DNA of 51,748 nucleotides from Candidatus Schekmanbacteria bacterium RIFCSPLOWO2_02_FULL_38_14 (GTDB lineage Bacteria > Schekmanbacteria > GWA2-38-11), in the NCBI GenBank assembly GCA_001790855.1, contig MGDH01000026.1, positions 1 to 51,748 of the forward strand. Reading direction: 5' to 3'. The notes below the pieces were generated by a model that made no database searches, was not told the origin of the DNA, and saw only the letters and a program-made list of their open reading frames with translations. Position 1 is the stretch's first letter; every line of letters starts with the position of its first letter. The translations under genes and the position numbers were made by a program. This document shows positions 10,249 through 43,984 of the stretch, one piece after another.

Positions 10249-10264
10249 TGGCATGAATTTTGCA
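10249..10264 (+). promoter_or_regulatory. Sigma54 (-24/-12) promoter of the speD operon
   Basis: The sequence TGGCATGAATTTTGCA has GG at 10250-10251 and GC at 10262-10263, exactly ten bases between them, as the sigma54 consensus requires. A run of seven T precedes the -24 box. Transcription would start near 10275, 47 bases before the speD ATG. A sigma54-dependent regulator gene lies immediately upstream. Confidence 0.8.
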
Positions 10265-41837: not shown

Positions 41838-43343
41838 CTACTTCTTCCCTTTCTTCTTAAAATTCACCGTTACAGACTCAGGCCCATGAAGAGTGCTCTT
41901 GCCATTCCTGTTAATGTCTTCAAGTTTGTAAAAAAATGTTCTTCCAGGTTTAGCATTCCTATCCTTAAACTCATAGCTTGCTCCTGATGTTGCACTACTG
42001 ATTGCAGGAATTAGTCTCCTATTGATCCTTACATAATTCCCATCCTCTTTTTCAGAACGCAAAATATTAAAGCTAATATTGTCAATCTCTGTTCCTGTTT
42101 CCCATTTCAGCACAACTTTGCCTCCCCTTATCTCTGCTATGAAGGATGAAAGAGTAATAGCAGTTGGTATTTCCTCTGCTGAGTACAATCTATTCTGTTG
42201 ATAAAATTCATTGGCAATAAAAACTTCATTGCCTGCATTTCCATCAAAGTTTTTTATCAAGACCGCTGCACTGAAATCTGTGCCCTGCGGAAAGAAAGCA
42301 GGGGCAGCAATAGTAAAATTACCAGTACCATCGTTCATATAGACTTTATTTGCCGTACCACTACCCTCCCCATTGGCTACAACTATATCTAAATCCCCAT
42401 CTTTATCTAAATCTCCAAAAGCTGCATCGAAGCTATAATCGCTATCAACAGGTAATTTTGTTGAGGTATTATCTTCAAACTTTGAGGTGCTTGAATTAAA
42501 GACATACAACCGATTCTGCTGACCACCATCATTGGCGATAAAAATGTAATCAATCTTACCATCATTATCTATATCTGCAAGTGCGGCAGAATTACTTGAA
42601 TTAGTATCAGATGGAATTATTCCTGTTGTATCTTCAGTAAATATTCCAGTTCCACCATTACGTAAAAGTCTATTTGGTTGCTCGAGGGAATTGATAGCCA
42701 AGATATCCAAGTCTCCATCTCTGTCAAAATCAGCAAGGATTAACTTTTGTGTAACTAAAGAATTACTCCCTATTAATCTTGAAGAAGTTTCATCAACAAA
42801 ATTTGTCATGCTATTATTTATCAATACCCTTATTGCATTGCTTTTAGAAAGCGAAGAGGCTGAAACGACTAAATCTAAATCACCATCCCCATCTATGTCA
42901 CCAAAAGCTTCGCTGGTATAAAATCGAGTCACTTGTGGAAGCCATGTTGTTCCCAGATTCGTGAAAACTCCTGCTCCGTTGTTTATCAAGAGCTTATTAA
43001 TCCCATTATTGGCTACAAATATATCTATGTCACCATCTCCATCCACATCCCCTGCTGCTGCACCATGACTATCGTCAGTATCTTGAGGTAATCTTGTAGA
43101 GGTAGAGTCTGAAAAGACACCTGAGCCATTGTTGAGCAGAAGGCGGTCCTGCCCATTGTTGGCCACAAAGATATCAAAGTCTCCATCATTTTCTATATCA
43201 ACAGCTACTGCACCAATACTGTAATCAAGAATTGCTGGAAGGTTTGTAGATGTAATATCAGAGAAATTTGCTGATTGAGAAAATTCTGGAAAAAGAAAAA
43301 CTAAAAACATCGCAAAGAAAAACTTTATAGATTTAAACTGCAT
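41838..43343 (-). CDS. Secreted FG-GAP/VCBS repeat protein
   Basis: The 501-residue protein has a signal peptide (about 1-25, ending FSQSA). Seven FG-GAP/VCBS-like repeats (about 35-395) follow, each with a calcium-binding D-x-D-x-D-G-D pattern, for example GDVDGDGDIDIFVANNG and GDLDKDGDLDIVVANGEG. They would form a seven-bladed beta propeller. The C-terminal part (about 400-501) resembles a fibronectin-type domain: VVLKWETGTEIDNISFNIL. It is probably exported, with an adhesive or matrix role. It ends in basic KKKGKK without a recognised sorting signal. It lies downstream, on the same strand, of the small-peptide genes at 43506-43910 and may share their promoter. Confidence 0.85.
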   Translation of the reverse strand: MQFKSIKFFFAMFLVFLFPEFSQSANFSDITSTNLPAILDYSIGAVAVDIENDGDFDIFVANNGQDRLLLNNGSGVFSDSTSTRLPQDTDDSHGAAAGDVDGDGDIDIFVANNGINKLLINNGAGVFTNLGTTWLPQVTRFYTSEAFGDIDGDGDLDLVVSASSLSKSNAIRVLINNSMTNFVDETSSRLIGSNSLVTQKLILADFDRDGDLDILAINSLEQPNRLLRNGGTGIFTEDTTGIIPSDTNSSNSAALADIDNDGKIDYIFIANDGGQQNRLYVFNSSTSKFEDNTSTKLPVDSDYSFDAAFGDLDKDGDLDIVVANGEGSGTANKVYMNDGTGNFTIAAPAFFPQGTDFSAAVLIKNFDGNAGNEVFIANEFYQQNRLYSAEEIPTAITLSSFIAEIRGGKVVLKWETGTEIDNISFNILRSEKEDGNYVRINRRLIPAISSATSGASYEFKDRNAKPGRTFFYKLEDINRNGKSTLHGPESVTVNFKKKGKK

Positions 43344-43505: not shown

Positions 43506-43661
43506 TCAGCTTCCTTCATTAAAGCACTGGGGAATAATGCACCCGCTCTGGTTTGGTCCTGCTTGTGTGTTGTTCTTGCACACACCAAGCACAGCTTCTT
43601 CAGCAACAAGATTGACCTTGTTTAATACTGGTTTCCTGTAAGGTTTTTTTTCACAAAACAC
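43506..43661 (-). pseudogene. Cys-containing RiPP-precursor-like small peptide gene (copy A), out of frame with its start
   Basis: A 51-codon frame reads EKKPYRKPVLNKVNLVAEEA, then VLGVCKNNTQAGPNQSGC and IIPQCFNEGS before a TGA. The basic N-terminal part, EEAVLGVCK region and short Cys/Gly/Asn core look like a ribosomally made, modified peptide precursor. The best start, GTG 43654-43652, is six bases after AGGAG (43665-43661) but enters a run of eight A in the wrong frame and stops after nine codons. Nine A would give MKKKPYRKPVL in frame. GTG 43661 is in frame but overlaps its ribosome binding site. This may be slippage, phase variation, mutation or sequencing error. Copy B lies upstream. 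Confidence 0.6.
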
Positions 43662-43698
43662 TCCTATTTTAAAATAAATTCTAAATTCTAAACAATGC

Positions 43699-43746
43699 GT
43701 TGACTTTGTTCAGCATGGTGAGCTGTGAGCTTGCCGAACAGTCAAC
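43699..43746. repeat. Inverted repeat GTTGACT...AGTCAAC
   Basis: The ends GTTGACTTTGTTC (43699-43711) and GAACAGTCAAC (43736-43746) are complementary apart from two extra T. The interior, GCATGGTGAGCTGTGAGCTT, resembles widely dispersed TTCGACAAGCTCACC-type intergenic repeats. Confidence 0.5.
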
Positions 43747-43774
43747 CACAAAATTCAAAACAAATATATGAAAT

Positions 43775-43793
43775 AGCAGAGCAAGGCTCTGCT
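43775..43793. terminator. Short GC-rich hairpin between the two peptide genes
   Basis: AGCAGAGC (43775-43782) and GCTCTGCT (43786-43793) pair perfectly around AAG. There is no long T-run, so it may be an attenuator or RNA-stability structure rather than a full terminator. Confidence 0.35.
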
Positions 43794-43831
43794 GCTACTT
43801 TTCACTAAATGCTGTTCACTATTCACTTCTT

Positions 43832-43910
43832 TTAGCTTCCCTGATTAACGCACTGAGGGATAAGGCGCTGGAAGCAGTGGTTTCTGGTAAGATTTTTTAT
43901 TGGATTTCAT
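43832..43910 (-). pseudogene. RiPP-precursor-like small peptide gene (copy B), internally deleted
   Basis: ATG 43910 follows an AAGGAG site (43926-43921) by ten bases and encodes MKSNKKSYQKPLL, matching the start of copy A (KKPYRKPVL). That frame soon ends at 43845. Another frame over the same bases encodes LIPQCVNQGS and stops at 43832, matching the copy A ending IIPQCFNEGS. The whole middle of copy A is missing, so a deletion of about 75 bases plus a frame change is the simplest explanation. A sigma54-type promoter candidate lies just upstream. Confidence 0.6.
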
Positions 43911-43968
43911 CTTCTTATAACTCCTTAAGAAGATAGATATAAATAATTTGCTTTTTATTGAAAAAGCA

Positions 43969-43984
43969 TGCAAATTTTATGCCC
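43969..43984 (-). promoter_or_regulatory. Sigma54 (-24/-12) promoter candidate for the peptide genes
   Basis: The minus strand reads GGGCATAAAATTTGCA, with GG at 43983-43982 and GC at 43971-43970, ten bases apart. Seven T precede the -24 box, as at the speD promoter. Transcription would start near 43958, about 48 bases before ATG 43910, and could continue through copy A into the VCBS gene. Confidence 0.65.

Follow-up and report, generated by a model that had tools for sequence, protein, structure and literature searches.

Several described pathways for ribosomally made, post-translationally modified peptides (RiPPs) resemble the system reported here. In lasso pathways, discrete RREs bind leader motifs of the YxxPx[L/I/V/M] type (PMC10368454), and the same paper, citing Zhu 2016, describes HprK-like kinases of paeninodin-type lasso clusters which phosphorylate the C-terminal Ser. 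For linear polyphosphorylated peptides (LPP), a system of Bacillota (Nat Commun 2026, PMC13381572), the report describes an RRE that binds a leader motif of this same type, the kinases LppK and BsfK, which phosphorylate Ser3 of the core, and LppS, an archaeal-type SPase I that acts as an RRE-dependent leader peptidase. Prochlorosins, the lanthipeptides of ProcM, are encoded by many scattered precursor genes served by one enzyme in trans (PMC10783134). HprK-like, PqqD-like and radical SAM/SPASM genes occur together in the SynChlorMet cassette (NCBIfam ScmC/D/E/F), and a radical SAM/SPASM enzyme combined with a Cys-containing core is found in sactipeptides and ranthipeptides (maturases SkfB, AlbA and PapB).

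The window analysed here, a stretch of 51,748 nucleotides, belongs to a genome (G000) of 2.68 Mb in 43 contigs that is 99% complete. As proposed in a first-pass annotation made from the letters of the window, two homologous peptide copies are present on its minus strand, copy A at 43506-43661 and the remnant of copy B at 43832-43910. Copy A is an unannotated small gene of 51 codons (43661-43509) with an in-frame GTG and a TGA stop at 43506-43508, encoding MFCEKKPYRKPVLNKVNLVAEEAVLGVCKNNTQAGPNQSGCIIPQCFNEGS, and was recognised from its own-genome paralogues and a dN/dS of about 0.2. Its predicted leader (43575-43661) extends through ...EEAVLGVCK, with a putative boundary, is conserved across phyla in the family alignment A3, and contains YRKPVL (43623-43640, minus strand) as the YxxPxL motif; this is the predicted binding site of a PqqD-type RRE, its Y and P are kept in at least 90% of A3, and lasso and LPP leaders share it. 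In the predicted core, NNTQAGPNQSGCIIPQCFNEGS (43509-43574), A3 and checked C-terminal ends place two conserved Cys codons (43539-43541 and 43524-43526) and a C-terminal Ser codon (43509-43511), and a third family-conserved Cys (43578-43580) sits at the leader/core junction.

Copy A is compromised at its start and may be poorly expressed or decaying. Of the good ribosome binding site that had been assigned to it, the AGGAG stands: it lies six bases from, and well spaced for, a GTG at 43654 that is followed by eight A (43644-43654, minus strand). This GTG, however, is one base out of the peptide frame, reading VKKNLTGNQY and then a stop, and the in-frame GTG (43661) directly touches the Shine-Dalgarno sequence. 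With nine A instead of eight, the gene would have the family-type start MKKKPYRKPVL found in relatives. The tract at 43644-43654 forms A AAA AAC, a heptamer of a known slippery type, which runs into the peptide frame, and it may be an assembly error. The out-of-frame start may be due to single-base loss, to assembly error or to -1 slippage on this heptamer. Copy A could thus be a recent pseudogene that lost one base in the A tract, leaving only the copies on contigs C4 and C43 functional in this genome, a serious possibility that we place somewhat below an even chance and that is compatible with the best explanation of the family. The well-spaced but out-of-frame GTG fits such a loss, as does the neighbouring copy B, which is already dead; on the other hand, the rest of the frame is intact and constrained relative to the other copies, an in-frame GTG is present, and homopolymer assembly error or -1 slippage would provide alternatives.

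Copy B is a deletion/frameshift pseudogene. It consists of a truncated leader-like ORF of 21 codons (43845-43910, minus strand; MKSNKKSYQKPLLPAPYPSVR followed by a stop) and, in a different frame of the same strand, of a core-end remnant, LIPQCVNQGS and its stop (43832-43864). The secreted VCBS protein gene reported downstream was recovered at 41838-43343 (minus strand) and encodes an FG-GAP/VCBS protein, predicted to be secreted, with an N-terminal hydrophobic stretch and, at its C-terminus, an fn3-like module that is found beside further copies of the peptide gene as well. The -24/-12 promoter proposed upstream was rejected. Its site (43969-43984) carries three mismatches to the sigma54 consensus, the window contains 36 such sites where 42 are expected by chance, and a comparable site is not conserved upstream of the other peptide copies; the presence of RpoN in the genome does not rescue the proposal. 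The best sigma54-type match in the window, TGGCATGAATTTTGCA at 10249-10264, has one mismatch.

The peptide occurs at three loci of its own genome, and the paralogues of copy A on C4 (C4:657-803; 71% identity, E 1e-19) and C43 (C43:9898-10050; 64% identity, E 4e-16) are both intact. With a profile of the own-genome copies, between 2 and 10 copies per genome were detected in the nearest three Schekmanbacteria-group genomes of those searched (G001-G003), and leader-type relatives elsewhere. Searches of Pfam and NCBIfam gave no match for the peptides of copies A and B, and none worth keeping over 29 family members. Intact members in A3 keep the leader motif [Y/W/F]xxPx[L/I/V/M]; two members have Trp or Phe in place of the Tyr, and a single decayed copy lacks it. 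Three cysteines, of which one belongs to the xCK junction and the others to the core, are conserved in nearly all members. Intact peptides terminate in Ser, rarely in Thr; the exception, G001:C113, ends in Arg and has lost its ATG too.

We also analysed selection on the copies. Copy A compared with the C4 copy gave a dN/dS of 0.21, and among 17 copies the mean proportions of synonymous (pS) and nonsynonymous (pN) differences were 0.75 and 0.17, respectively. Eight copies of G002 gave a saturated pS of 0.69 and a pN of 0.05, the protein being nearly identical. Because pS is high and pN low, what has been conserved at each locus is the protein, and the copies are not young. We considered a recent mobile spread of the gene and rejected it, given that synonymous sites between copies are saturated. 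The first-pass annotation had named a dN/dS near 1 and a lack of synteny as grounds for abandoning the peptides; what we found is purifying selection (dN/dS about 0.2) and homologues that are syntenic across several phyla.

Decayed fragments of the peptide core were observed at G000:C15:14859-14903, G001:C64:5818-5874, G002:C14:30041-30082 and G002:C6:13269-13325, and the first of these seems to adjoin tRNA-like sequence. At L095:17074-17184 (G002:C6:27573-27683), a copy that lost its leader start is fused to the stop-codon region of a module gene and is probably a pseudogene. A weak peptide-like match near a distant radical SAM and a signal peptidase gene (G001:C136:12261-16090; L081, L122) may represent a further subfamily.

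The family was found in several phyla, including records labelled Acidobacteria, Nitrospirae, Gemmatimonadetes, Anaerolinea and Thermoleophilia. The radical SAM and peptidase genes that the first reading had suggested looking for near homologues are present in these relatives, whose typical compact cluster comprises a PqqD-type RRE, a radical SAM/SPASM enzyme, the precursor, an HprK-like kinase and an archaeal-type signal peptidase, with the peptide gene between the radical SAM/SPASM and HprK-like genes. The peptide adjoins radical SAM and/or HprK genes in L012, L014, L020 and L040-L047. An NTP_transf_5 protein and ABC genes are sometimes part of the clusters; an NTP transferase is also present in some LPP clusters (PMC13381572).

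As an independent test, the peptide profile A3 was run on 386 genomes, and the neighbours of new matches were inspected in genomes not used to build it. A radical SAM gene was adjacent to the peptide in all seven such genomes (G216, G340, G242, G287, G333, G345 and G221), most of which also carry PqqD, HprK and signal peptidase, and G242 has two peptides. A more distant radical SAM adjoins the peptide match of G380, a weak match in G067 has no enzymes beside it, and G047 has an HprK-like gene nearby and no convincing radical SAM. By score, the radical SAM matches were of two kinds, 14 genomes reaching 428 bits or more and the rest no more than 314 bits, and 13 of the 14 high-scoring genomes were peptide-positive (hypergeometric P 6e-20), a count that is not fully independent, as some of the genomes tested also contributed to the enzyme profile A6. 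In the fourteenth, G059, a divergent YxxP...GS peptide, MQGQDEKRGRRKYLTPDVTHVELDVMVSVPNNCKLATDNTNGLGAPGPCTQSSQPGVSCMNVGS, lies between the enzymes.

The first-pass annotation had noted that the window contains no modifying enzyme and that one would have to act in trans. Indeed, none of these enzymes was found in the window, and an operon for them without a precursor exists on another contig, C29, of the same genome. It encodes a PqqD protein (L078:9607-9903), a radical SAM/SPASM enzyme (L078:8434-9600), an HprK-like kinase (L078:7483-8361) and a signal peptidase (SPase I; L078:6994-7476), and since only 72 bases separate the radical SAM and kinase genes a precursor would not fit between them. 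The gene set recurs in G002 and G003, again without a precursor. The profile of these PqqD proteins had its best solved match in TbiB1, a lasso RRE, ahead of PqqD itself. The radical SAM enzyme keeps CxxxCxxC and seven SPASM-type cysteines, is 57% identical to an enzyme that lies beside a precursor in G089, and has SkfB as its best solved relative by sequence. The kinase, predicted to adopt the HPr kinase/PEPCK fold (pLDDT 89), retains the His, the P-loop GKST and the D[D/E]R motif, and the signal peptidase, with Ser/His/Asp kept, scored 63.2 bits where the curated threshold of archaeal-type SPase I is 51.85.

Given these precursor-less operons and the cis clusters elsewhere, the precursor appears to have moved out of the operon in the lineage of the window, and action of the enzymes in trans is predicted for every dispersed copy. 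The loss of the cis precursor in the Schekmanbacteria lineage is proposed by parsimony only. The Schekmanbacteria radical SAM enzymes form one clade (support 98/97), and rooting of a tree with 13 open forks and long outgroup branches gave no resolution of the ancestral arrangement.

A second syntenic gene set without a visible precursor, consisting of PqqD, HprK-like, radical SAM and Transglut_core3 (lasso B2-like) genes, was observed at L159 (G000:C1; 8028-10983), L160 (G002:C14; 9754-12517) and L161 (G003:C144; 4644-7452). The dispersed peptides might be matured by this set instead of the C29 operon, or by both, which we consider improbable though worth keeping in mind. In its favour, the set has no visible precursor and is conserved in the same neighbourhood in G000, G002 and G003, and G001 has parts of it and has peptides without a good C29-type radical SAM; in this genome, only 70% complete, no clear orthologue of the enzyme was found (31% at best). 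Against it, family-level homology in the leader, the Cys pattern and the C-terminal GS ties the peptides to the C29-type clusters of other phyla.

Eight of the ten copies in G002 lie within 300 nt downstream, on the same strand, of a gene that ends in the shared fn3-like module (P about 1e-22), and a module gene likewise precedes both intact paralogues of copy A (C4 and C43), G001:C85 and, judging by its upstream bases, G003:C171. The window has the opposite order, its module gene being downstream of copy A. The proteins that carry the module are diverse (DUF7948 with SBBP propellers, RCC1 and LVIVD propellers, TSP3 repeats, FG-GAP, subtilase). The module itself, which has a Lys-rich tail and no Pfam match, occurs at 41841-42164 of the window and at 26 places in G002, in many unrelated secreted proteins, and possibly serves in sorting or anchoring. 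In two families, a peptide copy is followed at a short distance by a C25 (gingipain-type) peptidase gene, located at L007:6730-9660 (G000:C43) and L096:1197-4037 (G003:C171).

The strength of the linkage to module genes, and the lack of a cis enzyme in the taxonomic order to which the window belongs, could also mean that the peptides carry no modification and are small proteins, secreted or regulatory, duplicated together with secreted-protein modules, the radical SAM linkage elsewhere reflecting a different use of a homologous peptide. We regard this as quite unlikely: a full enzyme operon has been kept without another precursor and with just those few bases between its radical SAM and kinase genes, the leader and C-terminal features agree with those of enzyme-linked homologues, and a signal sequence is not evident. 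That copies A and B, short as they are and without a match to any database family, arose as small frames by chance is hardly credible and already refuted for copy A by homologues in several phyla with synteny and purifying selection.

The reading we favour, at a probability of roughly 0.8, is that copy A is predicted to be the precursor of a RiPP, one of three dispersed copies, and would be modified by the C29 enzymes in trans. Of the earlier RiPP proposal, a precursor with a trans-acting enzyme is thus strongly supported by comparative genomics, and the sigma54 promoter is unsupported and the start of copy A compromised. In the pathway proposed from these genes, the PqqD-type RRE of G000:C29 would bind the YxxPx[LIV] leader, and the radical SAM/SPASM enzyme encoded beside it would modify the Cys-containing core. 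Enzymes of this type often make Cys thioethers or other crosslinks, and our best guess is that links of this kind form at the conserved cysteines. The HprK-like kinase would phosphorylate a hydroxyl residue, for which the near-invariant C-terminal Ser is the likeliest candidate, the archaeal-type signal peptidase would cut off the leader, and one enzyme set would serve all copies in trans. Most copies are apparently co-transcribed with an adjacent gene whose product is secreted (a beta-propeller, thrombospondin-3-repeat or subtilase protein with the shared fn3-like module), and because of this apparent co-transcription the peptide is probably produced and exported together with secreted proteins rather than used as a cluster-encoded antibiotic.

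A short encoded precursor with a conserved leader is present, as is a cognate modifying enzyme linked to the family, in cis in other phyla and in trans in this genome. On genomic grounds, we class the family as a variant of the RRE/HprK/SpI RiPPs (LPP, paeninodin-type) that has a radical SAM enzyme in addition and dispersed precursors presumably matured in trans, its chemistry and function being predicted. With LPP, as described in PMC13381572, it shares a discrete RRE, an HprK-like kinase, an archaeal-type SPase I leader peptidase and the leader motif YxxPx[V/L/I]; RRE, HprK-like and SPase I genes occur together without a lasso cyclase, its absence being judged from ORF lists. The LPP leader consensus given there, YxxPxVLxHQxIxFETxxS, is in contrast common to both families only in YxxPx[V/L/I]. 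The LPP core gene set as described contains no radical SAM gene, a term absent from the paper, whereas a radical SAM/SPASM gene is adjacent in our cis clusters; the LPP kinase targets Ser3 of the core, with the precursor in cis, and the sections consulted describe no counterpart of the conserved three-Cys core.

Paeninodin-type lasso systems likewise combine a YxxP/WxxP leader and a discrete RRE with HprK-like kinases (PMC10368454), but the family has a radical SAM/SPASM enzyme instead of the lasso enzymes. A YxxPxL leader and an RRE are both present. No lasso cyclase was noticed around the C29-type operons in ORF lists read by eye, and the B2 peptidase (PF13471) is absent at these operons. 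A lasso peptide was accordingly rejected; the PF13471 matches lay elsewhere and led to the second enzyme set instead. Compared with SynChlorMet, all Scm matches were far under the curated NCBIfam cut-offs and the precursor has no family match, and the radical SAM enzyme is also far under the cut-offs for sactipeptide and ranthipeptide maturases. Prochlorosins differ in their enzymes, their Nif11 leader and their very variable cores (PMC10783134), whereas cores are near-invariant here and copies lie beside secreted-protein genes. We found no paper that combines PqqD, HPr kinase and radical SAM, which is not proof of absence.

The peptides thus appear to form an undescribed RiPP family, in which lasso/LPP-like recognition and a kinase are joined by a radical SAM/SPASM enzyme, and to include a lineage where the precursor left the operon and multiplied. 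Such precursor genes are overlooked because standard genome mining seeks precursors beside enzymes. Either module and peptide form a cassette that was duplicated whole, or the peptide acts together with the secreted proteins, and the strong constraint on each copy makes the second the more likely. Eight copies in G002, with saturated synonymous sites and near-identical protein, argue that every copy is needed. Tentatively, and at odds well short of even, a peptide modified by radical SAM enzyme and kinase may be a dedicated partner of secreted proteins: near-identical precursors would be retained in operons with a wide range of secreted proteins (beta-propeller, repeat and peptidase proteins), served by one trans operon, and would have a structural, anchoring or export role and not that of an antibiotic. 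Through the link to secreted proteins, a role other than in chemical warfare can be put to the test.
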